IMG/VR virus record: IMGVR_UViG_3300028129_000005
Coordinates: 103,740-167,739 of that record
Source: a virus
Length of the DNA stretch: 64,000 nucleotides
Strand: one strand, 5' to 3'
Shown here: piece by piece, positions 9,054 to 52,292 of the stretch
Layout of the letters: the number at the start of each line of letters is the position of its first letter
How positions within the stretch are numbered: the stretch's first letter is position 1
Translations under genes and position numbers: made by a program
Notes under the pieces: generated by a model
Database searches by the model: none
What the model saw: only the letters and a program-made list of their open reading frames with translations
What the model was told of the DNA's origin: nothing

Positions 9054-9521
9054 ATGGCAAACATTGACAACGAATGTAAAGATCTAGAAGTAAAAGATTT
9101 TTACGACCAATCAACAACACACTTAGCAGATATCATGGAAAACCAAAAGAAGATGCAAGAGCAGACTTATGGTTTTAACTTTGATAATATGACAATCCGA
9201 GAAATTATGGATTTCTGGCACTGTAACACACATGCAGTAGTTGACGAAATTCATGAAATGACAGATGCTCTAGGCGGTATTAAAGACGGAAGTGGTAATG
9301 CAGTATGGAAATACTGGAAAAAAGACTTCACTAAGTATGATAAGTTAAAAATTTCTGACATGTCCGAAGGCGACAAAAAAGAATTGTATATGGAATGGGT
9401 AGACATTCTACACTTCTTTATTAATTACGCCGCTTCAATTGGGCTAGATGCTAAAACAGCATACAACTACTACTTCGCAAAAGCAGAAGAGAATGTTAAC
9501 CGTCAGAAAAATAACTATTAA
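9054..9521 (+). CDS. Dimeric dUTPase / MazG-like NTP pyrophosphohydrolase
   Basis: A 155-residue all-helical protein. The metal-binding pattern is visible as DEIHEMTDALGG around residue 64 and ELYMEWVDILHFFINYAASIG around 113, followed by a C-terminal YYFAKAEENVNRQ helix. This is the arrangement of dimeric dUTP diphosphatases. It would hydrolyse dUTP (or another dNTP) to the monophosphate, protecting phage DNA from uracil. Its stop overlaps the polymerase ATG by one base, fitting a nucleotide-metabolism/replication operon. Confidence 0.75.
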   Translation: MANIDNECKDLEVKDFYDQSTTHLADIMENQKKMQEQTYGFNFDNMTIREIMDFWHCNTHAVVDEIHEMTDALGGIKDGSGNAVWKYWKKDFTKYDKLKISDMSEGDKKELYMEWVDILHFFINYAASIGLDAKTAYNYYFAKAEENVNRQKNNY

Positions 9522-10918
9522 TGATATTAGATATTGAACAGAGAGACAGGGATGTTATCATCTCTTACTACGACACCGAAGGTAAAGTAGCATTTAAACA
9601 ATATCCAATTTCACAGTATCAGAACTGGTATGTATGTAATGATAATGATAAAGGCAGAAGTCTAGATCATAAAAACTGGGATGGCAGATCAGTCAAACTA
9701 GGAAGTGCAAGAAGATATAATAAGTTTTCTTTAACTTATTTCTTAGATTCATTACCCGCAAAGGATAAAGAAGAAATCTTTGCATACAATATGCCTAAAA
9801 CATACTTCGTCGATATTGAAACTGAAATCGTAGATGGCTTTCCAAAAGCTGAAGAAGCTAAAAGTAGAATCCTATCATTTTCCATAATTACACCAGAACA
9901 TAAAGCTATTGTATTAGGATTGGAAGATATGGATTCTAAAAGCATCCAAAAAATTGAAGACGATACTAATAAGTATTTCAAAGACTTTGATCAGGATTGG
10001 GAATTCAAATATCAGAAATTCGAGTCAGAATATGACATGGTCTATACGTTCTTAATGAAGTTCCTACCTAAGTTTCCAATGATGACAGGCTGGAACTTTA
10101 TTAATTATGATTGGCAATATATTGTAAACAGATGTAAAAGATTACAAATTGATATTGCTGAAGTTTCTATGACACAATCTTTGGATAGAAATGACAGCAG
10201 ACCCTTACATATTGGAATCTTAGATTACATGCAATTATATGATAAGTATGATAGAAGTGTAAAGGTAAAAGAATCTAATGCACTTGATTATGTCTCAGGT
10301 CAAGTTCTTAATGTTAACAAGATTAAATTTACAGGATCTCTACAGGATTTATATAGGGATGATTTTGTAAAATACATTTACTACAATGTAGTCGATTCCG
10401 TATTGGTTTATTATATAGATCAAAAGTTGAAATCGATGGAAGTTCTTTTAACCTTGGCAAACATCACAAAGATGCCTCTATATAAAGCAGCATCGCCAGT
10501 GGCAGTTACAGAATCTCTGATTGCACGAAAATTATCAGAAGAAGGTAAACGAATTGGATCTGAAAAGAAGGAAGACAGTGAAAAGAATGCACAATATGCC
10601 GGTGCTTATGTAAAAGAACCCATTACTGGATATTATGCAGGTGTAAGTGCATTTGACTTTGCATCACTATATCCTTCTATAATGAGACAATTTAATATTT
10701 CACCTGACGCCTTTGTTGAAAAGGTAGCAAAGCATGAAGTCGCTGAGCGAAGAAAGGATAAAGAAGTAATCGTTTGTGAAAACGGAGTAGTCTATAAACA
10801 AGAGACTTCAATGTTAAAGAAAATTCTAGGAGATTTATATGATCAGCGTAAAGATTATAAACAAACCTCATACGAATATTTCACTAAAGCCGACAGACTT
10901 AAAAAAAGATTAAGATAA
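9521..10918 (+). CDS. gp43: DNA polymerase gp43, N-terminal fragment (exonuclease and motif A)
   Basis: 465 residues of a family B polymerase. Exo I is YFVDIETE near residue 99, Exo II is GWNFINYDWQYI, and Exo III is YNVVDS. Polymerase motif A is FASLYPSIMRQF near residue 385. The protein stops in the fingers helix (YDQRKDYKQTSYEYF, then KKRLR). Motifs B and C are absent here and occur in the gene at 14838. Both pieces end cleanly, with no intein-like residues. The two would have to associate to polymerise DNA. The gene is coupled to the dUTPase and followed by a terminator. Confidence 0.93.
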   Translation: MILDIEQRDRDVIISYYDTEGKVAFKQYPISQYQNWYVCNDNDKGRSLDHKNWDGRSVKLGSARRYNKFSLTYFLDSLPAKDKEEIFAYNMPKTYFVDIETEIVDGFPKAEEAKSRILSFSIITPEHKAIVLGLEDMDSKSIQKIEDDTNKYFKDFDQDWEFKYQKFESEYDMVYTFLMKFLPKFPMMTGWNFINYDWQYIVNRCKRLQIDIAEVSMTQSLDRNDSRPLHIGILDYMQLYDKYDRSVKVKESNALDYVSGQVLNVNKIKFTGSLQDLYRDDFVKYIYYNVVDSVLVYYIDQKLKSMEVLLTLANITKMPLYKAASPVAVTESLIARKLSEEGKRIGSEKKEDSEKNAQYAGAYVKEPITGYYAGVSAFDFASLYPSIMRQFNISPDAFVEKVAKHEVAERRKDKEVIVCENGVVYKQETSMLKKILGDLYDQRKDYKQTSYEYFTKADRLKKRLR

Positions 10919-11046: not shown

Positions 11047-12054
11047 ATGAAACCATCAATATTTAAAGAAAGAATAGAATACAAACCGTTTGAATATCCA
11101 GTATATTATACTGAAGGATGGTTAAAACAAGCACAGGCGTTTTGGTTACATACCGAAATTTCAATGCAAGGCGATGTCAAGGATTGGAATGAAACACTTA
11201 CAGATTCTGAAAAGAATTTAGTTGGAAATATTCTTTTGGGGTTTGCACAAACTGAATGTGCAGTTTCAGATTATTGGACAGGGATGGTTACTGATTGGTT
11301 TCCTAAATGGGAAATCAAACACATGGCAATGTTGTTTGGTTCTCAAGAAACTATTCATGCAACCGCTTACTCTTATTTAAATGAAACATTAGGCCTTGAA
11401 GATTTTGAAGCATTCTTACATGAACCAACAACAGCAGAAAGATTCGATTATTTAATGAATACAGAAGCAGAATATACTCATGAAGACCTTTTGAAAAATC
11501 CAACAGCTAGGAAGGATGTTGCTAGATCTTTAGCAATATTCAGTGCATTTGGAGAAGGAGTTGCATTATACTCTTCATTCGCCGTTCTTTATTCTTTTCA
11601 AATGAGAAATAAACTTAAGGGAATCGGACAACAAATGAAGTGGTCAGTTAGGGATGAATCTCTTCATTCAAAAATGGGTTGTCAATTATTTAACCACATG
11701 TGCGAAGAATATACTGATCTTAGAGATTCAGTTCAATCTCAAGTAGAAGAAGCAGCTAAGTTAATGGTTGAAATGGAAATGAAGTTTATTGATAAGATGT
11801 TTGAAATGGGAGATTTAGAAAATCTTAAGAAAGAAGATCTTAAAGAATTTATTAAGAAAAGAGCTAATGAAAAATTAGCAGAAATAGGATATCAATCTAT
11901 CTTTGAATACAATGAAGAAAGTGCTTCAGAATTAGATTGGTTCTATCACTTAACAGGTGGACATACACATACGGATTTCTTTGCAGTAAGACCTACTGAT
12001 TATTCTAAAGCAGGCGAAGATGAAAACTGGGATGAAGACGATTTGTTTTCATAA
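11047..12054 (+). CDS. nrdB: Ribonucleotide reductase class I, small subunit
   Basis: 335 residues with the ferritin-like R2 signature. By alignment with known R2 proteins the metal ligands are Glu in FAQTEC (Asp in most class Ia enzymes), Glu and His in SQETIH, Glu in AFGEGVAL, and Glu/His in RDESLH. A Tyr seven residues after the SQETIH Glu fits the radical tyrosine. It supplies the radical for NDP reduction and lies 27 bases before nrdA. The pair is inserted between the two halves of the DNA polymerase. Confidence 0.93.
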   Translation: MKPSIFKERIEYKPFEYPVYYTEGWLKQAQAFWLHTEISMQGDVKDWNETLTDSEKNLVGNILLGFAQTECAVSDYWTGMVTDWFPKWEIKHMAMLFGSQETIHATAYSYLNETLGLEDFEAFLHEPTTAERFDYLMNTEAEYTHEDLLKNPTARKDVARSLAIFSAFGEGVALYSSFAVLYSFQMRNKLKGIGQQMKWSVRDESLHSKMGCQLFNHMCEEYTDLRDSVQSQVEEAAKLMVEMEMKFIDKMFEMGDLENLKKEDLKEFIKKRANEKLAEIGYQSIFEYNEESASELDWFYHLTGGHTHTDFFAVRPTDYSKAGEDENWDEDDLFS

Positions 12055-12081
12055 CAAATCAATAATTCTAATATAAAATAT

Positions 12082-13932
12082 ATGATGATAAGAAATTACA
12101 ACGACGCACCAAACCCCGAATACAATGAAAAGGGAAAAGAAAGAAACTTCGGAGAATCTGAAGGATGGAAATTAGGAGTAGACTTCCCAGTATGGGCTAA
12201 TACTGAAGTTTATGTAAAAACTGTTTCTAAGGGATATTTACTAGAAGGAGAAACTCCAAAGGATGCATACTGGAGAGTATCGACAACAGTTGCACAAAGA
12301 TTAAGAAAGCCAGAATTAGCAAGTAAATTCTTTGATTATATGTGGAAAGGATGGTTAAATCTTGCAACTCCAGTTTTTTCAAACACGGGTTCAGAAAGAG
12401 GTCTTCCAATTTCATGTTTCGGTATAGATGTAGCAGATTCAATTCACGATATAGGTTCAAAGAATTTAGAATTAATGTTACTTGCTAAACATGGAGGCGG
12501 TGTTGGTATCGGAGTAAATCAGATAAGACCGGCAGGAGCAACCATTACAGGAAACGGAACTTCAGACGGAGTAGTTCCATTTATAAAAATTTATGATTCT
12601 ACTATTTTAGCAACTAATCAAGGTTCAGTAAGAAGAGGTGCAGCGTCAGTCAATATAGATATAGAACATGATGATTTTTGGGAATGGTTAGAGGTTAGAG
12701 AACCTAAGGGTGATGTAAATAGACAATGTTTAAACGTACATCAATGTATCGTAGTATCTGACGGGTTTATGCAAAAGATCGAGGCTGGAGATAAAGAAGC
12801 TCGTAAAAGATGGGCCGCTGTGATTAGAAAAAGAAGAGCAACAGGAGAACCTTATATAATGTTTAAGGGTAATATCAATAGAATGAATCCGGATGCGTAT
12901 AAGCAAAATGGTTTAAAGGTTTATATGACTAACATCTGTTCTGAGATTACTTTACACACCGATGAAAATCATTCATTTGTATGTTGTTTATCTTCTGTGA
13001 ATCTTAAAAGATATGAAGAATGGAAAGATACTGATTTAATCTATACTGCAACTTACTTTTTAGATGGAGTTCTTCAGGAGTTTATTCATAGAGCGAAATA
13101 TATGAGAGGCTTTGAAAATGCAGTAAGATCCGCTGAAAAAGGTAGAGCATTAGGTTTAGGAGTTCTCGGATGGCATACTTATTTACAAGATAGAAATATT
13201 CCATTCGATTCTTTGACAGCTCAATTTGAAACTAGAAAGATATTTTCTCAAATCAAAGTAGAAAGTGAAAGAGCAAGTAGAGATTTAGCTACAGAATTTG
13301 GAGAACCTCTTTGGTGTGTAGGAACTGGAATGAGAAACACACACTTAAGAGCAATTGCTCCTACTGTTTCTAATTCTAAATTAGCAGGAAATGTTTCACC
13401 AGGCATTGAACCATGGGCAGCAAATGTATTTACTGAACAAACTGCAAAAGGAACTTTTATTAGAAAGAACCCTGCACTTGAAAATATGTTAACTAAGATC
13501 AAGCAAAATAAGAAAACAGTATGGGACAAAATACTAGAAGACGGTGGTTCAGTTCAAGGCGTTGATGTATTAGGAGAATATTGGGTAAAGGAAGGAAGTA
13601 GTGATGCCCCGATTAAGCAAGCCACTTATGACAAATTAACAGATCACGAAAAGGATCTTTATATTTCTGTTAAAGATGTATTTAGAACCTTTAAAGAAAT
13701 TAATCAAATGGAATTAGTTAAACAAGCTGGTGTAAGACAACAATATATTGATCAAGCAGTTTCATTAAATTTAGCTTTTCCTACACAGGCTGAACCTAAA
13801 TATATTAATCAAGTTCATTTAGAAGCTTATAAGCAGGGAATAAAAACTCTTTATTATATGAGAACAGAATCTGTATTAAGAGGAGACATCGCACAGCGAG
13901 CAATGGAAGATTGTTTAGCATGTGATGGATAA
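12082..13932 (+). CDS. nrdA: Ribonucleotide reductase class I, large subunit
   Basis: 616 residues, shorter than the E. coli enzyme (about 760), with no N-terminal ATP-cone visible. Active-site elements are present: SCFG (first redox Cys), TNICSEI (N-x-C-x-E), FVCCLSSVNL (second redox Cys), LYYMRTES (radical-transfer Tyr pair) and a C-terminal CLAC. It reduces ribonucleotides with NrdB. Loss of the ATP-cone would remove the overall activity site that dATP normally inhibits, as seen in other lytic phages. Two adjacent Met codons could serve as start. Confidence 0.93.
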   Translation: MMIRNYNDAPNPEYNEKGKERNFGESEGWKLGVDFPVWANTEVYVKTVSKGYLLEGETPKDAYWRVSTTVAQRLRKPELASKFFDYMWKGWLNLATPVFSNTGSERGLPISCFGIDVADSIHDIGSKNLELMLLAKHGGGVGIGVNQIRPAGATITGNGTSDGVVPFIKIYDSTILATNQGSVRRGAASVNIDIEHDDFWEWLEVREPKGDVNRQCLNVHQCIVVSDGFMQKIEAGDKEARKRWAAVIRKRRATGEPYIMFKGNINRMNPDAYKQNGLKVYMTNICSEITLHTDENHSFVCCLSSVNLKRYEEWKDTDLIYTATYFLDGVLQEFIHRAKYMRGFENAVRSAEKGRALGLGVLGWHTYLQDRNIPFDSLTAQFETRKIFSQIKVESERASRDLATEFGEPLWCVGTGMRNTHLRAIAPTVSNSKLAGNVSPGIEPWAANVFTEQTAKGTFIRKNPALENMLTKIKQNKKTVWDKILEDGGSVQGVDVLGEYWVKEGSSDAPIKQATYDKLTDHEKDLYISVKDVFRTFKEINQMELVKQAGVRQQYIDQAVSLNLAFPTQAEPKYINQVHLEAYKQGIKTLYYMRTESVLRGDIAQRAMEDCLACDG

Positions 13933-14837: not shown

Positions 14838-16037
14838 ATGGATATAAACACACTAATTAACAAGCCCGAAGACGACCTTACACGGGATGAAATGCAAACC
14901 TTGGCGGATCACTATCAAACAATGTCCGCCAAGTTTACTGCATACGAACAGGCCGTTAAAGTAACTCTTAACTCGATCTATGGTGCATTTGGTAATAAGT
15001 GGTTTCACTTTTTTAATATAGACATTGCAGAATCTATTACACTACAAGGACAGAATGCAATTCTATATTCTGAAAAGATTCTTAATAAATATTTTCAAGA
15101 GTTTTGGCCTAAAGATACTGTGGTCCATGAACATTTCAATATTTCTATTAAGAATAAATTAGTAAGACCTTCCGTGGTTTATATTGATACAGATTCATGT
15201 TACGTTCAGTTTGAAGAAATGTATGAATCTATTGAATGGCTAGGAGATAATAAACTACCAATTGATAAGTTTATTATGGAATTATATACGTTCAGAATCA
15301 AAGACTATATCACGAAATGTATGGCAAAGTATGCCGAAGTTACGAACACAGACAACTTTTTATATTTCGATTTAGAAACAATTGCATATTCAGGAATATG
15401 GTTAGCTAAAAAGAAATATTTACAAGACATTGCATGGGAAGATAAGCTCGAAGTAGACGATAGATACCCTTCTCTTAAGAAGATTAAGACGATTGGATTT
15501 GATACTATTCAATCTTCTACTCCTACATTAGCAAGAAAGCATTTGACTGAAGCTCTTAAATTGATTTTATCTGAAAAGCCAACTGCAGAGATGTTAAGTA
15601 GATTAGTTTCTTTTTTGAAAACGGCAAAGAAAGAGTTTAAGATGTCTAATGTTGATGAAATAGCTTTCAATAAAAGAACTAATAATATTGAAAAATACAT
15701 TGTAGATGATACGATAGAATTTCAATATGGTTTAAAATGTCCTCCGAACGTCAAGGCAGCAGGATTCTATAACTTCTTAATGAATCAGAATCCAAAATAT
15801 AAAAACAAGTATAAAATGATTGGTAATGGCGAAAAGCTAAAATTATATCATTGTAAACATAATGTATGTGAAATGTATGCATATCAACCAGGTGCCCATC
15901 CTTATGAAATTGCACCACAGGTAGATTATGAAACACAATTTGAAAAATCTGTAATAGATCCTATCAATAGAGTATTATCTTCAGTAGGTCTTCAGAGACT
16001 AAACAGAAATCTAATATATTCATCTTCATTATTCTAA
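14838..16037 (+). CDS. gp43: DNA polymerase gp43, C-terminal fragment (motifs B and C)
   Basis: 399 residues that continue the family B polymerase begun at 9521. Motif B is KVTLNSIYGAFGN near residue 41 and motif C is VVYIDTDSCYVQF near 114, followed by thumb sequence to the C-terminus. The first 40 residues are the descending fingers helix. It cannot act alone because the exonuclease domain and motif A are missing. It is probably co-translated with the clamp just upstream, so its expression is separate from the N-fragment. Splits of gene 43 have been reported in some Aeromonas T4-like phages. Confidence 0.93.
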   Translation: MDINTLINKPEDDLTRDEMQTLADHYQTMSAKFTAYEQAVKVTLNSIYGAFGNKWFHFFNIDIAESITLQGQNAILYSEKILNKYFQEFWPKDTVVHEHFNISIKNKLVRPSVVYIDTDSCYVQFEEMYESIEWLGDNKLPIDKFIMELYTFRIKDYITKCMAKYAEVTNTDNFLYFDLETIAYSGIWLAKKKYLQDIAWEDKLEVDDRYPSLKKIKTIGFDTIQSSTPTLARKHLTEALKLILSEKPTAEMLSRLVSFLKTAKKEFKMSNVDEIAFNKRTNNIEKYIVDDTIEFQYGLKCPPNVKAAGFYNFLMNQNPKYKNKYKMIGNGEKLKLYHCKHNVCEMYAYQPGAHPYEIAPQVDYETQFEKSVIDPINRVLSSVGLQRLNRNLIYSSSLF

Positions 16038-37653: not shown

Positions 37654-38085
37654 ATGCTAGACGAAACAAAATTATTTGATTTTGTAAAGATCATGTTTAC
37701 AAAACCTAATCAATACAAGAACGTAAAGAACTTTAATAAGAAGAGACACCACTTCATGATTAACAGATTTTTTGCTATTAAATATCCATCAAATGCACAG
37801 TTATTTAATGTGAATGGAATTAATGGCAATGCAGTTATAGATAGTTGGCACATGGTATCTTCAAGATTTCGTTCAGTTCCAGGGTGGATCTATACTAAAA
37901 CTAAGAAGGCAGCTCCAAAACCTAAAAAATCAAAAAAAGAATATATACCTAAAGAAGAAACAATTAAATTCTTTTTACAAAGAAATGAAATTGGAATGAG
38001 AGAGTTCAATGATCTTAAGAAATTCAACCCGGTTGAATTAAATAATAATCTATTGGAATTAGAAAACACAATGCAGGTATATTAA
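37654..38085 (+). CDS. Possible clamp loader small subunit (gp62-like)
   Basis: 143 basic residues. The block RHHFMINRFFAIKYP near residue 30, then WHMVSSRFRSVPGW, a Lys-rich linker and a terminal helical stretch, vaguely resembles small gp62 proteins of marine T4-like phages (NK/NR-aromatic block followed by a helix). Location near gp44 and RNase H supports this, but the similarity is weak. Otherwise hypothetical. AGTATAAT lies five bases upstream. Confidence 0.45.
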   Translation: MLDETKLFDFVKIMFTKPNQYKNVKNFNKKRHHFMINRFFAIKYPSNAQLFNVNGINGNAVIDSWHMVSSRFRSVPGWIYTKTKKAAPKPKKSKKEYIPKEETIKFFLQRNEIGMREFNDLKKFNPVELNNNLLELENTMQVY

Positions 38086-43304: not shown

Positions 43305-45971
43305 ATGGCACTAAGTCCTCAATTATTACAATTCAAGAGTTCAGGCGTTTACAGATTGGAATTTGATAAATCTCAAACTGCTAATATTGACGTTTCTACT
43401 CTTAGGCTGGTTGTTGGTCACTCAAGAAAGGGACCTTATAATACACCAGTATTAATCGAAAACGTTGAAGCATTCATTCAAGTATATGGAAACATTGACA
43501 AATCGTTAGAGAAAAAAGGAATGTTCTTCCACAGATCAGCTAAAGCTGCTCTTTCAAGAGGACCTATCCTAGCTCTTAACCTTGCTCAATTTGGAGTAAA
43601 TGATTTAGCTTCAGCTGCACAAATTTCAACAAACGGATCATATGAATCTGATCCAGTATCGAATAGATATTCAGCGCCGCTTCCAACGGATGTAGCATTT
43701 GAAGTAGGTGATCCTATTCCAGATACAGGATCTGTTCCAGTTGCAACTGCTATTACAGACGCTGCAGCAGCTACACTTTCAGTAGACGGTTTAACTTTAA
43801 CACTAGCAGGTGTAGATTTAACATCTAGCCTAGCAGGTACTTTCTATTTACTTTCAGATGCAGGTAATGAACCTCATATTGCAGCAACAGCTGCGTTTGA
43901 TGGTACAGATACTGTAATTACAGCTTTAGCTGCTATCAATACAGCTCACGGTGGTGGTTCAACAAGTTTTGATATTTATGACAGTGCAGCGACTATTGCT
44001 CCCGATCAGTATACTCTAGCACAAGTTGAAGCTGATACGTTTTATACTTATCCTTCACTAGGTCATCAGACTGGAGACTATACTTATTCAAGTTTCTTTG
44101 ACACTGATAAATTTATGATTCCTTCTGATGAGAAATTATTACAAACATTAGGTGAAGATGCTAACCAAGTTTTAAACTTTGTTAATATTAAACAAACACC
44201 AATCACAGTTTTCACAAGAAAAGCGCAAGATACGGCTGGATTTGATGTTACTGCAAGAGAATGGTATGGAGAAGGAAATGTTCCAGCATATTTAAATGAC
44301 AAAGATTTAATGTCAGATTATATGATTGATGTATTTGTATTCAAAGGTCAATTTGATGCTGCAGCAATGGACACCGATCCAGTTTATGGATTTTACTTCG
44401 ACAGTAAAGGTTTAAGAAAAGAGCTAATAGAACAATTTGCAAATTTAAGACAAGTTGAAATGATAGGTTCTTATTCTGGTTCAATGCTTCCAGGTTTTAA
44501 AGACTTAGAAGGAAGAAACGTATATATCGAAACAATGATTAACGCTGAAGCAAGAAGAACAGGTTTATTCTGTGCAATTGCTGAAGATTTAGTAACTGAT
44601 GAATCTGGAGATACTCCAATTGATTTAGTTGGTCACACATTTGACGAAGACGGATCAGATCAAGTAGTATTATCTTACGATGTTGAAATGAGATCAATAG
44701 CATTACCTAACGCTGATGTATATGCCGCGGAAGGAGAAGATGCAAAATTTACTTTTAACGATCCTAATCATCCAAAGCCAGAAATTACAAAAGGAAACTA
44801 TATTAGAGTAGGTGAAAGATTAGCTTTAGTTAAACAAGTATCAGTTGAAAAAACAGATTTAGTAACTATATGGACTGTTAAATTATCAGAAGCAGCTCCT
44901 TTAGTAGCTCCTTCAGTTTATGTTGAATCTTTAGAAGATGCAGCTGAGTCATATACTCCATTTGTATTAAATGGTGCTCAAATTGAAGCAGAAACTATTT
45001 TCTCATGTTTAGAAGCTATTAAAGTAGGAACAGGATTAGCAACTGGTTTAGTAGATAAAGATGCAATCGAATTTAGATATATTGTTGATACATTTGGTTC
45101 TTTTGATAATCAATTAAGAGATAAAATCCAATTATCTCAATTAGCAAAAGAAAGACAAAATGCATCAGCTATATTAAATGCACCAATGGTAAAAGATTTT
45201 AAAGCATCTACGGATCCTTCATTTATCAATGCATTTAGCCAGTCATTCCAAACTTCATACATTCCAGAAGGAGGTAACTTAGATTTAAATCCAACATCCT
45301 TATACACATTACCAAGTATCGCAGATGGTGCAAATTACGCATTCTACTACGGTCCTGGTCTTATTGTAAGAGAAAATGGAAAAGACATCATGGTTCCACC
45401 AGCTGCGTATGTATCTAATAACTATATTGATAAATACACAGATGCTTTACCATGGTCAATTGTTGCTGGTCCTAGAAGAGGAGTTGTTGCTGGCCCTAAT
45501 GTTGTAGGTGCTGAATACTCTTTTGACAAAGCAGACAGAGACATTTTAGAGCCATTTGGTTATAATCCAATTGTATTCCAAAGAGGAGTTGGTTTAACTA
45601 TCTTAGGAAATAAAACTGCACAGCAGTCTATTAAATCATCACTATCTTCAGCTCACGTTAGAGAAGTGTTAATTTACATTCAAGATGCAATGGCAGATAT
45701 CCTTAAAGATTACGTATTCGAATTTAACAATGCACAAACTAGATTAGAAATCAAAACTCTAGCAGATTCATTAATGGAATCAGTTAGACAAGATGGTGGT
45801 GTATACGATTTCAAAAACGTAATGGATCAATCAAATAACACAGGTGAGGTAATTGACAACAACATAGGTATCATAGATACATTTGTTGAGCCAGTTAAAG
45901 GTTTAGAAATAGTTGTGCATAGAACAACAATTTTAAATACTGGTGAAATTTCAACCGGAAACTTTAGTTAA
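43305..45971 (+). CDS. gp18: Tail sheath protein, gp18-like
   Basis: 888 residues, longer than T4 gp18 (659). The N-terminus SSGVYRLEFDKSQ with LVVGHSRKGPYNTPVLIE is typical of contractile sheaths. The C-terminal conserved domain has WSIVAGPRRGVV, FGYNPIVFQRGVGLTILGNKTAQ and SSAHVREVLIYIQDAM. An inserted Ala/Thr-rich, beta-like segment at about 140-240 has no T4 counterpart I can see. Subunits surround the gp19 tube and contract. Confidence 0.93.
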   Translation: MALSPQLLQFKSSGVYRLEFDKSQTANIDVSTLRLVVGHSRKGPYNTPVLIENVEAFIQVYGNIDKSLEKKGMFFHRSAKAALSRGPILALNLAQFGVNDLASAAQISTNGSYESDPVSNRYSAPLPTDVAFEVGDPIPDTGSVPVATAITDAAAATLSVDGLTLTLAGVDLTSSLAGTFYLLSDAGNEPHIAATAAFDGTDTVITALAAINTAHGGGSTSFDIYDSAATIAPDQYTLAQVEADTFYTYPSLGHQTGDYTYSSFFDTDKFMIPSDEKLLQTLGEDANQVLNFVNIKQTPITVFTRKAQDTAGFDVTAREWYGEGNVPAYLNDKDLMSDYMIDVFVFKGQFDAAAMDTDPVYGFYFDSKGLRKELIEQFANLRQVEMIGSYSGSMLPGFKDLEGRNVYIETMINAEARRTGLFCAIAEDLVTDESGDTPIDLVGHTFDEDGSDQVVLSYDVEMRSIALPNADVYAAEGEDAKFTFNDPNHPKPEITKGNYIRVGERLALVKQVSVEKTDLVTIWTVKLSEAAPLVAPSVYVESLEDAAESYTPFVLNGAQIEAETIFSCLEAIKVGTGLATGLVDKDAIEFRYIVDTFGSFDNQLRDKIQLSQLAKERQNASAILNAPMVKDFKASTDPSFINAFSQSFQTSYIPEGGNLDLNPTSLYTLPSIADGANYAFYYGPGLIVRENGKDIMVPPAAYVSNNYIDKYTDALPWSIVAGPRRGVVAGPNVVGAEYSFDKADRDILEPFGYNPIVFQRGVGLTILGNKTAQQSIKSSLSSAHVREVLIYIQDAMADILKDYVFEFNNAQTRLEIKTLADSLMESVRQDGGVYDFKNVMDQSNNTGEVIDNNIGIIDTFVEPVKGLEIVVHRTTILNTGEISTGNFS

Positions 45972-46007: not shown

Positions 46008-46562
46008 ATGGCTTTACCACACTATTCACAAGATCAAACTAGTAAGGCGGGTAGACAATTCGAACCAGTACAAGGAAACTTATTTGAGGTAACTATTTTA
46101 CCTCCAGCTGGCGTTTCTGATGCTCCACTATTACTACAACACGTTAACACTATTGGCGGGTTGGAATTATACAAAGATGCAGGTACCGTCGAACAGAAAT
46201 ACAAGTTCTCAAAAAGATCTTATGCTGGTATGCCAGATGATACTTCACTTACAGTGGCTATCAATTTCTCTTTGAACTTAAACGACGCTAACCAAGCTTA
46301 TTTATATAAAACAATGAGACAATGGTATAACTTAGCTTACAATCCACAAACTGGAGAAATGGGCTTAAAGAAAGACTATACTGGAACAATAGTAATCGTT
46401 CAATTTAACAGAGCTGGAGATATTTTCAGAACTGTAACATTAGAAGATTGCTGGATTTCTTCTGGACTTCCATTCACTAACGACTTAAGTTATGAATCTC
46501 CAGAAGCTGCTGCTTTAGACGTATCATGGAGATGTGATACCTTTAAAGAAGTATTAGCTTAA
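46008..46562 (+). CDS. gp19: Tail tube protein, gp19-like
   Basis: 184 residues (T4 gp19 is 163). Beta-rich with NLFEVTILPP, YKFSKRSYAGMP, FSLNLNDANQAYLYKTMRQWYNLAY and LEDCWISSGLPFTNDLSYESP near the end, typical of tube proteins. It lies directly after the sheath, with its own late box and terminator, consistent with high expression. Confidence 0.9.
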   Translation: MALPHYSQDQTSKAGRQFEPVQGNLFEVTILPPAGVSDAPLLLQHVNTIGGLELYKDAGTVEQKYKFSKRSYAGMPDDTSLTVAINFSLNLNDANQAYLYKTMRQWYNLAYNPQTGEMGLKKDYTGTIVIVQFNRAGDIFRTVTLEDCWISSGLPFTNDLSYESPEAAALDVSWRCDTFKEVLA

Positions 46563-46639: not shown

Positions 46640-46858
46640 ATGTCCAGTAAACTAACGAAGAAATTACAGGTATTACTCTCTGAAGAAGAAGTGTTTATCA
46701 TAAACAGGATTATACTAAACGAGGCGATTGAAAATGGAGAGAGACCGGTTTCAGTTTCGGCGTTTATCAGAGACTTAATAAGACAAGAAATAGATAAAAA
46801 AAGCGATCTTCAAAAGAGTTGGGATCGAAATAGAATTAAACAACTCAAATCTAAATAA
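46640..46858 (+). CDS. Small ribbon-helix-helix-like protein
   Basis: 72 basic residues. KKLQVLLSEEEVFIINRIIL and PVSVSAFIRDLIRQEI have the spacing of a strand followed by two helices, as in Arc/MetJ-type DNA-binding proteins. It could be a local regulator of late genes. Spacing to the next gene is six bases. Confidence 0.5.
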   Translation: MSSKLTKKLQVLLSEEEVFIINRIILNEAIENGERPVSVSAFIRDLIRQEIDKKSDLQKSWDRNRIKQLKSK

Positions 46859-46864
46859 TAAAAC

Positions 46865-47836
46865 ATGAGCAAAGACAAAAACAAAAAAGAAGAAGAAATC
46901 AATTTAGACGATCAATACAAAGCTATTGTTGAAGCTAATGAGAACGAATCTTCAGTAGAATCAGAAGAGCCTAAGAATTTAGGTAAAGTTGATATGTCTA
47001 GATTTCAACCAGCTGAAGCAAAGGAAGCTGATTTTCATTTAGGATATCATTCAGTTAAAATAGATTCACTACCGTCAGGTGGAATGTTCTATACTCCAGA
47101 TACTGAAATTTCTATTAGATCTGCAAAGGTTGCAGAGATTAGACATTTCTCTACCATGGACGAAACCAACATTCTAGATGTAGATGAAAAATTAAATGCT
47201 ATAGTAGAGTCATGTCTTAGAATAACTTCTAAGAAAAAAAGACTTTCATATAAGGATATTTTAGAAGAAGATAGATTTTGGTTAATTTTAGCAATCAGAG
47301 ATTTAACTTTCCCTGAGCCTGAAAATGCATTAACTGTTAAGTATCAAGATAAGAGAGGTGTTTCTCACGATGCATCAATTGATAAGAAATATTTTCAATA
47401 CTTTTCTATTCCAGAAGAATTAGATAAATATTACGATCAAGATAAAAGAACCTTTATTATTGAGACAAAATCATTTGGTAACATTGAAATGAGACCTCCT
47501 ACAATTGGTCTAATGCAAAAGGTTACTAAGTATATTAAAGAAAAGCAAGAAAAGGGATTACAGGCTGATCAGTCTTTAATTCAATTAATTCCATATCTAT
47601 ATACAGATTGGAGAGGCTTTGATGATAAATCAATCTTTAATTTTGAAGTAGAATTAAACGGATGGAACAATAGAAAATATGCTTTAGTATATAAACTCGC
47701 TGAAAAAATGAAAGTCGGAATTCAACCTGAGATGTTGGTAACGCATGAGGATGACGAGGTCCTCGTTCCGATTGGGTTTCGTGACGGAATCAAATCTATT
47801 TTCCTTGTTCAGGATATCGCTGGAGAACTTCTTTAA
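46865..47836 (+). CDS. gp26: Baseplate hub/tail assembly chaperone, gp26-like
   Basis: 323 residues. The region HSVKIDSLPSGGMFYTPDTEISIRSAKVAE with AIVESCLRI matches the T4 baseplate (gp26) family pattern (LPSxGxFY followed by a helical bundle). The N-terminal 50 residues are acidic and probably disordered. The last codons, GAA CTT CTT TAA, with GGAG just upstream, form a potential +1 shift site leading into the overlapping gp51-like frame. It lies upstream of the tape measure, where tail assembly chaperones are usual. Confidence 0.7.
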   Translation: MSKDKNKKEEEINLDDQYKAIVEANENESSVESEEPKNLGKVDMSRFQPAEAKEADFHLGYHSVKIDSLPSGGMFYTPDTEISIRSAKVAEIRHFSTMDETNILDVDEKLNAIVESCLRITSKKKRLSYKDILEEDRFWLILAIRDLTFPEPENALTVKYQDKRGVSHDASIDKKYFQYFSIPEELDKYYDQDKRTFIIETKSFGNIEMRPPTIGLMQKVTKYIKEKQEKGLQADQSLIQLIPYLYTDWRGFDDKSIFNFEVELNGWNNRKYALVYKLAEKMKVGIQPEMLVTHEDDEVLVPIGFRDGIKSIFLVQDIAGELL

Positions 47837-48053
47837 AACTAAGTTCTACCTTTATAAGCATCTTTCAATACAACCCTCTGAACTTGAAAACATGGAATAT
47901 TATGAATTCCATTATATTGTCAAGGAGTTAATTGAAATGATTAAAGCTGAAAACGAAGCGAACAAAGGGCAAAATGATCAAACTAACGAGATGATGGGAA
48001 GTATGAAAATGCCTTCTTTCAAAATGCCAAGTTTCAACATGCCTAAAATGTAA
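47745..48053 (+). CDS. gp51: gp51-like chaperone, overlapping frame (possible +1 frameshift extension)
   Basis: Open in the +1 frame relative to the gp26-like gene and overlapping it by 92 bases. The first 30 codons look unlike protein; the conserved-looking part begins near ENFFKTKFYLYKHLSIQP and contains MEYYEFHYIVKELIEMI. It ends in Met/Lys/Pro/Phe repeats (MPSFKMPSF). Three ways to express it are visible: a +1 frameshift at 47831-47834 giving a 395-residue fusion, a TTG start at 47805, or an ATG at 47893. In T4, gp51 is a separate hub assembly factor. Confidence 0.6.
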   Translation: MRMTRSSFRLGFVTESNLFSLFRISLENFFKTKFYLYKHLSIQPSELENMEYYEFHYIVKELIEMIKAENEANKGQNDQTNEMMGSMKMPSFKMPSFNMPKM

Positions 48054-48589: not shown

Positions 48590-51500
48590 ATGGCAAACAC
48601 CAACTCCGAAAAGGCGTTAATGGGATTCGCAATGAGTTCCAACTCGCTTCTGCAGAAAATAGAGGCTATAGAGAATCAAACCAGAGATACTTTATTTAGA
48701 ATAGAGAGTATCATGGTTACGAGTTTCTCTGTTACACAGGGTATTGCCGCAAGTCTTACTGAAAACAACAAAATACTTAAAGAAATAAAGGAAATCATTT
48801 CCAGAAAAAGCGAGGCTGAAAAGGCTCAATTTGGAGGTGGTGGAGGAATAAGTAAACTTCTAGGACTAGGAGGGTTTATCGCACTTACAGGAATAGGAAT
48901 GTTCGGTCTAGCGATGGCATTTCAAGAAGCAGGTAAGGTAAGTCCTACGGCTATAGTTTCGGGTGTTGCTTTATTCGCAGCAATGTTCCCTATTGCAAAA
49001 ATCCTAGGAGCTATAATGGCAGATCCTAGTAGTGGTGGAGTTTTTGGTCAAATCAAGGTAATGAAAAAACTAGTTTTAACAATGGGTATGTCTATGTTAA
49101 TGTTAGTTGCTATGTCATTGGCATTAAACTCAATGGCACCTGTAAGTGGTGATAAATTAGTGGCCGCTCTGGCAATCGGTGCAGTTATCTATATAATGGG
49201 TCAAACTTTCGTTCAATTAATTAAGGCATGGGAATTTTCAGGTATTATGAATTTTATGCTTAATAAGAATAACACCGATGATATTATGAGGGCCATGTTC
49301 CTTATGACTATTCAAATGGTTGTTTTAGCAGCTGCAATGAATTTAATGCCATCTGTTAAAATGGATGATGCATTTAATTTTGTAATAATATCAGCAGCAA
49401 TGATACCTCTTGCAGTTGCCCTAGTTGCAATGAGATTTGCACTTCCAGCTATTGAAAAGATAAAGGTAGGCACTATTGCTAAAGCAGGTTTAGCGGTTGC
49501 AATGCTAGGATTAGCTCTAGTTCCTGTTGCGATGGCAGCGAGGCTAGTTGGTAAGGTAGGAATATCGGAACAGGAAATTTCTAGATTAGTAAGTATTACA
49601 ATGGCACTTGCACCTTTAATAGCTGTAATAGGAGTTATCACTGCAATTATTAATTTTGCAAAAGAAGGTAGAGTTAATAAATCTGCAAGTGGAGGTAATT
49701 CTCTACTTAAACAAGATAATTCTAGAAAGAGAAATCAGAAAATGAATTTAAAAGGAATTGCAATATTTGGTCTACAAGCCGTTGTTATTCTCGGAGTATT
49801 AGCCCTTACTGCAGTTGCCTTCAAATTTGGAGCGCCAATGATAGCAGCGGGTGCACAAGCCGCTAGGCAAATTGACATGATAGGTGTAATGAAATTAATG
49901 TTTACATTAGGAGGATTATTATTAATAGGAGGTCTTGTAATAGGGATGACAATTAAAATGATGAAGGGTAAGCAAAAATCACAAAAAACTGGACTTATAC
50001 CAGGAATGGGATCTAGTTCAGAAAAACCAGGAGCATTATCAAAGCAAGATTTAATAGCATCCATGGTAATATTACCAATTATAGTATTATCAATGGCAGC
50101 AGCAGTTATGGCATTTAAATTAATGCCATCTATTCCTAAAATAGAAGATGGATTCTTATCGTTTGTATTTATTACAGGTATTGCAATATTTATATACGGA
50201 TTTGCAATGGCAAAGGTGTTTAGCGCATTAGCAGGTAAGTCTAAAGGTCCAGGTGCAGGAATGTTTGGTTTTGGAGGTTCATCTAAAAGAGGAAAATTAG
50301 GTATTAAAGATATATTACTAGCGGCACTTATGGTTCCTATAGTAGCATTAGCTATTGTCGGAGCAGCTTATGTATTTCAAATGATGCCAGCTACTTCTGC
50401 GGAGATGGCACCTGATTTGATGTGGGCTTTAAAATCATCAATCGCATTAATGATATTTGGTGGAGCGATGATAATAATTGGAAAGCTTGCTAAGAATATG
50501 GATTTTAAAGCAGCAGCTAAAGCAATGTTAGTAGTTGCTCTTGCAGCACTAACTATATTATTGGTTGCATTTGCATTTAGTCTCGCTGGAGACATATCTT
50601 ACGGAGAAGCGCCACCACTTCCATGGTCAGTTGGTGTAGGAATAGCTCTATTTATATTAGGTGGTGTAATTTTAGCCCTTGGTGCAATTGCGACAGTAGT
50701 AACTCCTGTAGGGATATTATTAGGTGCTCTTACCGTATTAGTAGGTGCAGCTGTATTGTATGCTGTTGCATGGATATTTACACAAATTGGTAAAATTGAC
50801 GGTCTTAAAGAAGCTGCTCAAACAATAACCGATGTTTTATTTATGCCATTTAATGCAATGGTAGATTTATTTAAAAGATTTAAAGATGAGATAGGAATAG
50901 AAAACATGGGAGGACTTGCAGCTGGTATAGGCCAAATAGCACTTGCATGGATAGGTCTTTCTATGGCACTTGCTGGTTCTGCAGCATCTGGATTATTTTC
51001 TAAGCTAGCAGGAGTTGGAGGAGCAATATTAGATGGTATAACATCCTTTCTAGGAGGAGATGTAGAAATGACACCATCTCAATTATTAAAATATTTAGTT
51101 AGAAATGCTGAAAAATTAGTAGTTACTGGAAATGCAATACAAATGGTATCAAAGGCATACACTAATGTAGCGGGTATGAGTGAGGCATTTATTGCTGGAA
51201 TAGCTCCATTTGGAGAATTCGTAAACAGGTTGGGAAGTTATACCGGTACTCTTGCTAGCGAAAATATGAAAGGTCTTTCTAAAGCTTATGGACAATATGC
51301 TAAAGCTAACAATTCCTTAGACGTAACTAAAGTTGAAGCAACTACAAAGATGTTTAACGCACTTGCAGATCTTGCTAAAAATAATGGTGAAAATGCAATG
51401 AAAGTTCTTGCTGATCAATTATTAAACGCAGTAGCACAATTATCGGATGCTGTTGCAGATCTAGATAGAGCAGTTGCTAAGCAAGGTAAATCTACTGGCG

Positions 51501-51682
51501 GATTTGGAGATGCAGTTTCTGGAGCTATTGATAAATTTAAAGAAGTAGTTACTGGAAATACCAAAAAGGTAGAAGCAATGACTCCAAAGGCCGGAAGCAA
51601 TGCAGATATCATAGAAGCGATTCAAGATTTAGAAGATACATTAGTGGCTTCAGGAATCAAGATCAAGCAATCTGCATATTAA
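48590..51682 (+). CDS. Tail tape measure protein (hydrophobic type)
   Basis: 1030 residues, the longest protein here. It has an N-terminal coiled coil (10-75), then at least twelve hydrophobic helices (for example LLMLVAMSLALNSM, MIPLAVALVAMRFALPAI and ILLGALTVLVGAAVLYAVAWI). A helical C-terminus follows. Such Ala/Met/Leu-rich repeats plus the position after the chaperone pair are typical of tape measure proteins. T4 gp29 (590) is shorter and not similar by eye. Sets tail length and probably enters the host membrane on injection. Confidence 0.75.
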   Translation: MANTNSEKALMGFAMSSNSLLQKIEAIENQTRDTLFRIESIMVTSFSVTQGIAASLTENNKILKEIKEIISRKSEAEKAQFGGGGGISKLLGLGGFIALTGIGMFGLAMAFQEAGKVSPTAIVSGVALFAAMFPIAKILGAIMADPSSGGVFGQIKVMKKLVLTMGMSMLMLVAMSLALNSMAPVSGDKLVAALAIGAVIYIMGQTFVQLIKAWEFSGIMNFMLNKNNTDDIMRAMFLMTIQMVVLAAAMNLMPSVKMDDAFNFVIISAAMIPLAVALVAMRFALPAIEKIKVGTIAKAGLAVAMLGLALVPVAMAARLVGKVGISEQEISRLVSITMALAPLIAVIGVITAIINFAKEGRVNKSASGGNSLLKQDNSRKRNQKMNLKGIAIFGLQAVVILGVLALTAVAFKFGAPMIAAGAQAARQIDMIGVMKLMFTLGGLLLIGGLVIGMTIKMMKGKQKSQKTGLIPGMGSSSEKPGALSKQDLIASMVILPIIVLSMAAAVMAFKLMPSIPKIEDGFLSFVFITGIAIFIYGFAMAKVFSALAGKSKGPGAGMFGFGGSSKRGKLGIKDILLAALMVPIVALAIVGAAYVFQMMPATSAEMAPDLMWALKSSIALMIFGGAMIIIGKLAKNMDFKAAAKAMLVVALAALTILLVAFAFSLAGDISYGEAPPLPWSVGVGIALFILGGVILALGAIATVVTPVGILLGALTVLVGAAVLYAVAWIFTQIGKIDGLKEAAQTITDVLFMPFNAMVDLFKRFKDEIGIENMGGLAAGIGQIALAWIGLSMALAGSAASGLFSKLAGVGGAILDGITSFLGGDVEMTPSQLLKYLVRNAEKLVVTGNAIQMVSKAYTNVAGMSEAFIAGIAPFGEFVNRLGSYTGTLASENMKGLSKAYGQYAKANNSLDVTKVEATTKMFNALADLAKNNGENAMKVLADQLLNAVAQLSDAVADLDRAVAKQGKSTGGFGDAVSGAIDKFKEVVTGNTKKVEAMTPKAGSNADIIEAIQDLEDTLVASGIKIKQSAY

Positions 51683-52125: not shown

Positions 52126-52210
52126 GGAGAAGTGGCAGAGTGGTCGAATGCACTGGTCTTGAAAACCAGCGAACTTCACGGTTCCAGGGGTTCGAATCCC
52201 TTCTTCTCCG
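52126..52210 (+). tRNA. tRNA-Ser (anticodon UGA)
   Basis: Class II tRNA. Acceptor GGAGAAG / CTTCTCC, anticodon stem CTGGT/ACCAG around TGA at 52160-52162, a variable arm, and a T arm with GGTTCGAATCC. CCA is not encoded. UCA is a frequent codon in this AT-rich sequence, fitting a supplement to host decoding. Confidence 0.95.
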
Positions 52211-52215
52211 CAATT

Positions 52216-52292
52216 GGTCTGGTAGTTCAGTTGGTTAGAATACATGCCTGTCACGCATGGGGTCGCGAGTTCGAGTCTCGTCCAGACCGCCA
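52216..52292 (+). tRNA. tRNA-Asp (anticodon GUC)
   Basis: Acceptor GGTCTGG / CCAGACC, D-arm GTTCAGTTGGTTAGAAT, anticodon stem CATGC/GCATG with loop CTGTCAC (GUC), T-loop TTCGAGT. CCA is encoded at 52290-52292, unlike the serine tRNA five bases upstream. Confidence 0.96.

Follow-up and report, generated by a model that had tools for sequence, protein, structure and literature searches.

A probable +1 frameshift site, UUU_C, in a gp26/gp51-family tail chaperone gene pair of Bacteroidota-type phages

Introduction

In phage lambda, the tail assembly chaperones G and GT are a short and a long protein made from one start by low-level frameshifting, and the long form links the tape measure protein and the tube protein (PMC5009743). 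The same 2016 review describes G-T frameshifting as conserved in long-tailed phages except T4 (PMC5009743). In a review of T4, gp26 and gp51 appear among the hub assembly chaperones, gp51 being essential and of unknown function (PMC3004832). The identification of tail assembly chaperone (TAC) genes in T4-like phages, and of their poly-T slippery sites, is attributed by a 2025 paper to Vladimirov et al. 2022 (Virology 566:9-15) (PMC12846349). What we report on T4-like gp26 and gp51 as tail chaperones, and on their poly-T −1 sites, thus seems to be a confirmation of published work. Here we analysed a gp26/gp51-like gene pair in 64,000 nucleotides of viral DNA (the window, positions 103740-167739 of a 167,739-base virus record). 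The second frame of this pair lies +1 relative to the first, and the pair is probably expressed by a +1 programmed frameshift, in which the P-site tRNA-Phe would slip from UUU to UUC at positions 47777-47780 of the window.

Sites of this kind have been described in influenza A virus, in which +1 frameshifting at UCC_UUU_CGU in PA-X was proven by mass spectrometry, with an efficiency of about 1%; changing CGU to CGG costs half of the activity, and a class of UUU_C sites was predicted by the authors (PMC3498833). In bacteria, the prfB (RF2) +1 frameshift was reported in 523 of 726 Bacteroidia genomes, and it is frequent in Flavobacterium johnsoniae and its class despite occlusion of the anti-Shine-Dalgarno (anti-SD) sequence there (PMC8710568). 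An earlier, sequence-only reading of the window had proposed a prfB-like shift at the CTT TAA that ends the gp26-like gene, stimulated by a nearby GGAG, and had drawn the analogy with lambda G/GT. Comparison of relatives supports the +1 link between the two genes, their gp26/gp51 naming and the lambda analogy; the prfB-type site and mechanism did not hold up, and TTT_CGT (47777-47782) is the more likely position of the shift.

Results

Two overlapping frames and their relatives

The gp26-like gene (ORF1, 46865-47836, + strand, as are the other features of the pair) encodes 323 amino acids and ends in GGA GAA CTT CTT TAA. The +1 open reading frame (ORF) extends from 47745 to 48053, runs open through the end of gp26 and encodes KTKFYLYKHL from 47835; in all of this the sequence-only reading was accurate. 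Downstream of the proposed shift it comprises 90 codons and a stop (47781-48053), predicted to encode a gp51-like T-domain that would form the C-terminal part of a long chaperone (TAC-NC, GT-like), with the gp26-like protein as the putative short form (TAC-N, G-like). ORF1 matches phrog_36717 (E 1e-25), a family of unknown function, and the +1 ORF matches phrog_634, baseplate hub assembly catalyst (gp51), with E 1.2e-5.

Relatives were collected at several depths. The close set consists of the best 80 of 289 viral contigs, 51-100% identical to the window, with 53 distinct junctions. Wider scans (best 80 loci of at least 427) and named phages gave 180 related loci with 91 distinct junctions. 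For the analysis of synonymous constraint, 163 loci and the window were reduced to 104 distinct genes and then, under 95% nucleotide identity, to 70 representatives, which fall into clade A (38) and clade B (32); 13 named loci (L083-L095) and L102, L103, L112 and L113 were left out. Phage records with a match numbered 31, of which 14 were examined and 12 counted as named distant phages, MA9V-2 and PTm5 being near copies. The genome collection search yielded one relative, L182, on a 3.7 kb contig, and a search seeded with MA9V-1 gp26 found no relatives. A match in Halorubrum HRTV-17 lay on the strand opposite all annotated genes there and was taken as chance. The hosts of the named relatives are Bacteroidota, such as Flavobacterium, Tenacibaculum, Chryseobacterium and Prevotella; PAU is listed under Sphingomonas.

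Coding in the +1 frame begins upstream of the gp26 stop

Synonymous change was measured as differences over all pairs of representatives, scaled to each pair's own average; the pair sums are not independent. Over the 70 representatives, synonymous change in gp26 falls across the last 19 codons, from codon 305 (TTT, 47777-47779). In clade A the ratio is 0.91-1.46 at codons 299-304 and 0-0.43 at codons 305-323, except codon 308 (1.26). The last six 10-codon windows of this clade show 0.10-0.11 of the expected synonymous change, as compared to a minimum of 0.65 elsewhere in the gene; this body minimum was computed for clade A and for both clades pooled, with the last 30 window positions set aside. 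Codons 297-298 of clade A are also low (0.05 and 0.0), coinciding with a GAGG element described below. In clade B the ratio is 0.0 at codon 305, 0.01 at codon 309 and 0-0.17 at codons 314-320, and the last two windows stand at 0.31 and 0.29. Because synonymous change drops from codon 305, the +1 frame appears to be translated already upstream of CTT TAA. The comparison of relatives shows, as a coding signal, that +1 translation starts at or near codon 305. The +1 frame is open from this codon past the gp26 stop in all 70 representatives, and in 13 of them a +1 stop lies two codons upstream of the TTT.

An invariant TTT_C at or near the onset of +1 coding

Codon 305 is TTT in 70/70 representatives, and the next base is C in 70/70 though the encoded amino acid varies. 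Parsimony on the tree gives 0 changes at F305, as compared to 12, 16, 13, 6, 3 and 4 at six other Phe columns. TTT_C at codon 305 (47777-47780) is also the only site within the overlap that permits full +1 re-pairing and is common to all 70.

The codon that would occupy the A site at the shift (CGT, 47780-47782, in the window) is CGT in 33, CGC in 2 and CCC in 3 members of clade A, and CCC in 28, CCT in 3 and CAA in 1 of clade B. It is CGT/CGC or CCC in 66/70 representatives, the PA-X-like CGN being confined to one clade (CGT/CGC in 35/38 of clade A; CCC in 28/32 of clade B). Both choices are unusual for these genes: Arg after TTT is encoded by CGN in 35/35 cases, while AGA is the usual Arg codon (in the window, AGA 30.7 and CGT 2.0 per 1000), and of the 35 CCC codons that clade B genes contain in total, 28 fall right after TTT. 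Codon 304, which would be in the E site, is variable, with TCC in 7/70, all of them clade B, and AAC, AGC, ACC, ACG and more in the others.

A conserved, Shine-Dalgarno (SD)-like GAGG (47756-47759) is located 17 nucleotides before the TTT. GAGG ending 14-20 nucleotides before TTT is present in 69/70 representatives, as compared to 39% of synonymous redraws, and codon 298 is GAG in each of the 64 representatives with Glu there. The same element precedes TTT_C by 17 nucleotides in LR756500, PAU, LR756501, LR745206, LR756502 and both Lak phages examined, and by 14 nucleotides in pT24.

The site extends to the named distant phages: in 11 of 12, a single in-frame TTTC occurs within the final 40 codons, and the +1 frame is open from there. 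It lies 19-22 codons before the stop in LR756500, Lak-B5, Lak-C1, PAU, LR756501, MaF61, LR745206, LR756502 and pT24. In the window, among 55 ORFs counted, in-frame TTTCGT occurs at only one other place, at 37867 (ORF 37654-38085), and the +1 frame is then open for 42 codons.

The T-domain includes residues encoded in the overlap

The segment that would be read in two frames (47780-47836) encodes the gp26 tail in frame 0 and, according to the constraint data and the helix model, the start of the first T-domain helix in +1. Our T-domain profile was built solely from products of −1 shifting, contributed by 88 cyanophage-type sequences together with four other T4-like phages. Against this profile the window product scores 26.8 bits when read from TTT_C and 11.8 bits when read after CTT_TAA, and in each of 11 sequences only 0 to 9 of 200 synonymous redraws reached the real score. 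Similarly, phrog_634 matches the product from TTT_C (E 6e-5), and the product after CTT_TAA gives no match. Residues L9, F10 and I12 in our T-domain alignment (A4) are invariant and lie upstream of the gp26 stop. The AlphaFold model of the T-domain has one helix, residues 5-28, that crosses the gp26 stop, with a mean predicted local distance difference test (pLDDT) score of 77 (74, 90 and 87 in the first three ten-residue blocks). A shift at CTT_TAA would omit the first half of this first helix. Comparison of the homologues shows the T-domain, as a conserved unit, to include the overlap residues; the sequence-only reading had let the second protein begin after the gp26 stop, and was mistaken in this, the conserved first helix being specified by +1 codons ahead of that stop. 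In the AlphaFold model of gp26 the last strand spans residues 297-302 and confidence is 70 and then 55 in the last blocks, after 310, which places the shift site near a domain border.

One relative with separate genes, L112, is a natural control for the need of the T-domain for these residues: its gp51-like ORF has its own ATG 4 nucleotides after the gp26 stop and carries its own overlap residues, SILSMFKINLENFFKAK. In both L112 and L113, the overlap between the gp26-like and gp51-like genes is gone; the segment is apparently duplicated, and gp51-like translation can start at an ATG of its own.

Relationship to T4-like chaperones

Families to which T4 gp26 and gp51 correspond are PF12322, phrog_150 and phrog_634. 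PF12322 (T4_baseplate) matches T4 gp26, T4 gp51 (residues 1-201), 44RR gp51, S-RSM4 gp26, nt-1 gp26 and PAU gp93 (6/6 tested), the last of these, a homologue of the window gp26-like protein, with 33.9 bits at a cut-off of 24.5; the window protein itself has no Pfam match. In addition to the +1 ORF, phrog_634 matches gp51 of T4 and 44RR, and of T4 gp26 and gp51 it matches gp51 only. When profiles were compared with hhalign, the fusion profile of the window family aligned with that of the cyanophage type over 281 columns (97.2%, E 8e-11), T4 gp26 aligned with the T4/44RR gp51 pair (96.2%, E 1.7e-9), and the gp26 profiles alone aligned poorly (E 0.083). The 44RR protein annotated as gp26 gave no match to the cyanophage-type profile (1.5 bits). 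Folds matching the gp26 model were those of T4-like baseplate hub assembly proteins (best E 4e-7); a PDB fold search with the model found nothing at E ≤ 0.001, and its Foldseek match to the HK97 tail assembly chaperone 2ob9 was not significant (E 7.8). By homology, indirect for the gp26-like body, the locus is assigned to the tail assembly chaperone gene pairs of the T4 gp26/gp51 family.

In cyanophage-type contigs (best 80 loci of at least 594), U_UUU_UUC is present in 59/59 distinct junctions; the −1 frame runs open over 59-61 codons, and in none of the 59 does it hold a start codon ahead of the gp26 stop. U_UUU_UUC is also found in 8/8 named Kyanoviridae phages and in Vibrio nt-1, and other T4-like phages have U_UUU_UUU (Cr30 and phiM7) or U_UUU_UUG (phiM9). 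This −1 U_UUU_UUN arrangement is absent from the window and its relatives, in which the second gene lies in the +1 frame.

Alternative routes to the second protein

Several observations weigh against a +1 shift at TTT_C. The onset of +1 coding is less sharp in clade B, where constraint among the sequences is patchier: codons 307, 308, 310, 312 and 313 are unconstrained (0.99-1.61), and codon 323 is at 0.90. Since the +1 frame stays open over these 19 codons in 42% of synonymous redraws per sequence, its openness is weak evidence for any single sequence. LR756504 lacks TTT_C, and the distance from TTT_C to the stop is 12 codons in MA9V-1 and 25 in PTm1. RNAalifold, applied to 38, 32 and 70 sequences, detected no conserved RNA structure around the site, the energies being near 0 and no better than those of column shuffles. 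To our knowledge, a spacing of 17 nucleotides, as for GAGG, matches that of no +1 stimulator, prfB's included. Profiles of the window family gave no direct match to T4 gp51, and in the literature covered a UUU_C shift was found proven only in a eukaryotic system, with its efficiency of about 1%. Furthermore, a GTG is the first or second +1 codon past TTT in 36/38 clade A representatives and in 1/32 of clade B (L108), and all 38 clade A representatives hold some ATG, GTG or TTG between TTT and the gp26 stop. Lastly, three phages have an ATG in +1 near the gp26 stop, namely PAU (with AAGGAGCGTATGATG following the stop), MaF61 and LR756502. Reinitiation may occur in them, and for this reason the family could switch between expression modes.

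The start codons in clade A raise the possibility that a separate gp51 is started inside gp26, in the window at the GTG that directly follows the slip site in +1 (47781-47783). Overlap coding due to such internal initiation would account equally for the synonymous constraint, and L112 demonstrates a separate gp51-like gene with its own ATG in a relative. The sequence-only reading had found no good ATG in the gp51 frame before its conserved part; most relatives do hold an upstream ATG, GTG or TTG in +1. We nevertheless regard internal initiation as unlikely. Two clade A members, L071 and L182, have GCG where GTG would be expected; in clade B, 31/32 representatives have no start right after TTT and 21/32 have none from TTT to the gp26 stop. 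These clade B sequences and the two GCG variants argue against initiation at GTG as a general rule, though in the window itself a separate gp51 may start at this codon. From the upstream +1 stop as far as the gp26 stop, 7/70 representatives have no ATG, GTG or TTG in +1 at all. Internal initiation also leaves unexplained the invariant TTT and C, which stand ahead of any such start, and the cyanophage relatives link both domains through a −1 slippery site and lack a start codon (59/59 distinct junctions, best 80 loci).

A +1 or −2 slip elsewhere in the 19-codon overlap is more doubtful still. The entry point is bracketed rather than observed, constraint in clade B is continuous from codon 314 only, and two other codons could re-pair in +1, namely AAA_G at codon 310 (13/32 of clade B) and GGG_A at codon 308 (7/38 of clade A and 10/32 of clade B). 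Against this, TTT_C at codon 305 is the sole re-pairing site that all 70 representatives possess, and CTT TTC at codons 312-313 varies in clade B.

The CTT TAA proposed by the sequence-only reading (47831-47836) lies 54 bases downstream of TTT, the gp26 stop lying 57 bases downstream of it. The close set, taken alone, agrees with that reading: CTT TAA and the open +1 frame were kept in 53/53 distinct junctions, two of them cut by the contig end. The wider relatives change the picture, as the last codon is CTT in 57/70 representatives and TTA in 13/70, so that CTT TAA has been lost with the +1 frame relation intact. GGAG (47822-47825), which does stand five bases ahead of CTT (47831-47833), is kept in 33/38 of clade A and in only 1/32 of clade B; variants at its position in the two clades are GGCG, TCAG, TCTG, GACG, GAAG, GCTG, ACAG, ACTG and TCGG. 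The last two Leu codons of gp26 are CTT CTT, TTA CTT, CTA CTT, CTT TTA or TTA TTA, and the +1 frame there reads FF, YF, YF, FY or YY, respectively, followed by Lys. Because all Leu codon variants keep an aromatic pair in +1, the conservation of CTT TAA is, on the comparative evidence, the trace of two overlapping proteins (Leu-Leu-stop in one frame, the aromatic pair in the other) and not of a slippery codon. Thus, even though CTT_T plus a stop is a known +1 site, a prfB-like shift at this ordinary-looking gp26 end is highly improbable, because TTA TAA variants exist and +1 coding and homology reach upstream of it. The predicted length of 395 residues for the fusion stands, since any +1 switch within the overlap yields it.

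Neighboring genes

The gp26/gp51-like pair sits between a tail tube gene and a candidate tape measure gene. Upstream of it are a sheath gene (43305-45971, PF17482) and the tube-like gene (46008-46562, phrog_45, tail tube). The small ORF at 46640-46858, between the tube gene and the gp26-like gene, has a weak ribbon-helix-helix match (PF01402, E 0.011) that is below the cut-off. Downstream, past one small ORF, the candidate tape measure gene (48590-51682, + strand) begins 536 nucleotides after the +1 frame; the candidate is proposed from its size (1030 amino acids), position and hydrophobicity (19 hydrophobic 19-mers), and profile searches gave no convincing family match.

The window also contains tRNA-Ser (tga) and tRNA-Asp (gtc) genes at 52126-52292, neither of which reads the codons of the shift site. 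By eye, the translations of the ORFs at 9521-10918 and 14838-16037 together resemble a single family B DNA polymerase, one covering its N-terminal and the other its C-terminal part, and the ORFs between them include some that resemble ribonucleotide reductase subunits (11047-13932).

Discussion

The evidence for a +1 shift at UUU_C suggests the following mechanism. Most ribosomes would read gp26 through to TAA and make the 323-residue protein. Some would stall when UUU (47777-47779) occupies the P site and CGU, a rare codon, the A site; tRNA-Phe would then re-pair fully on UUC, one base downstream, and decoding would go on in +1 with GTG ACG GAA and so forth for 90 codons. The fusion, with ...VPIGF joined to VTESNLF... 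at the junction, would lose the 18-residue gp26 tail and gain the gp51-like T-domain, and a tryptic peptide, VGIQPEMLVTHEDDEVLVPIGFVTESNLFSLFR, would be expected across its junction. On the lambda model, the tape measure protein would be coated with the short form, and recruitment of tail tube subunits would fall to the long form, which would be rare. We infer the slip itself, its efficiency, a pausing role for CGU or CCC, and the chaperone function. It is possible that GAGG, at 17 nucleotides, helps the shift.

In the wider family, it is likely that a branch of Bacteroidota-type phages, from about 170 kb genomes to Lak and other huge phages, makes a T4-type long chaperone by a +1 shift at UUU_C before a rare A-site codon, possibly helped by GAGG. 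As far as the literature covered shows, these would be the first members on bacterial ribosomes of a site class known from eukaryotic viruses, and the chaperone pair would be made in three ways. Frameshifted phage tail chaperones are already known; what is new is the +1 UUU_C variant in Bacteroidota-type phages. In open-access literature, including the relevant portions of PMC5009743, PMC10885494 and PMC3711429, we found no description of a UUU_C +1 site in gp26/gp51-like genes. If confirmed, the finding would bring bacterial ribosomes into the range of UUU_C +1 frameshifting, known from eukaryotic viruses, and the GAGG, present although the hosts largely disregard SD sequences, would provide a handle on the use of the anti-SD during elongation.

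The finding also bears on annotation. It offers a testable shift site in phage groups for which current annotation treats the second frame of the chaperone as a hypothetical protein of its own. In this branch the second frame is annotated as a separate protein in 7/7 annotated records, the 7 other records examined having no annotation. The N-termini of these gp51-like genes are probably wrong, because their starts lie inside or downstream of the overlap residues. The annotated starts in PAU, PTm1 and PTm5, the two MA9V phages, MaF61 and pT24 fall after or shortly before the gp26 stop. In Lak-B5, the gp51-like frame has an in-frame TAG at the position of a Glu codon in Lak-C1, which is consistent with the reading of TAG as Gln in Lak phages.

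Among the known systems, lambda G/GT provides, by analogy, the model of a short and a long chaperone, but its shift is −1, unlike that proposed for the window. As is proposed for the pair described here, phage PSA of Listeria and halovirus HSTV-2 have +1 shifting in virion or tail genes; the PSA sites, in capsid and tail shaft genes, are CCC sites, unlike the proposed window site, and the +1 shift of HSTV-2 was called very likely (PMC5009743). The +1 direction is shared with prfB, and a CTT beside a stop does exist at the gp26 end; in the window family, however, CTT-stop is not conserved and is not where +1 coding starts, and no close SD-like element is kept.

The likeness to PA-X lies in the site itself, with a predicted P-site slip on UUU_C and an A-site codon starting with C; the same UUU_CGU occurs in 33/38 of clade A. 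Differences from PA-X are that it belongs to a eukaryotic virus, as compared to a double-stranded DNA phage on a bacterial ribosome, that clade B has mostly CCC in the A site, and that its UCC E-site codon has a variable counterpart in the window family (UCC in 7/70). The protein domains, in turn, are those of T4-like phages. The Kyanoviridae-type gp26-gp51 has the same two domains and, as proposed here, gains its long form when ribosomes change frame towards the 3' end of gp26, but by −1 at U_UUU_UUC close to the gp26 stop, in contrast to the proposed +1 at UUU_C in the window family. T4 again has the same domains, a gp26-like body and the gp51 T-domain; as the sequence-only reading had correctly noted, it makes the two forms separately, and their genes lie on opposite strands, unlike in the window. 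The problem of the ratio of tail chaperones would thus be met by +1 shifting, by −1 shifting and by separate genes within one protein family.

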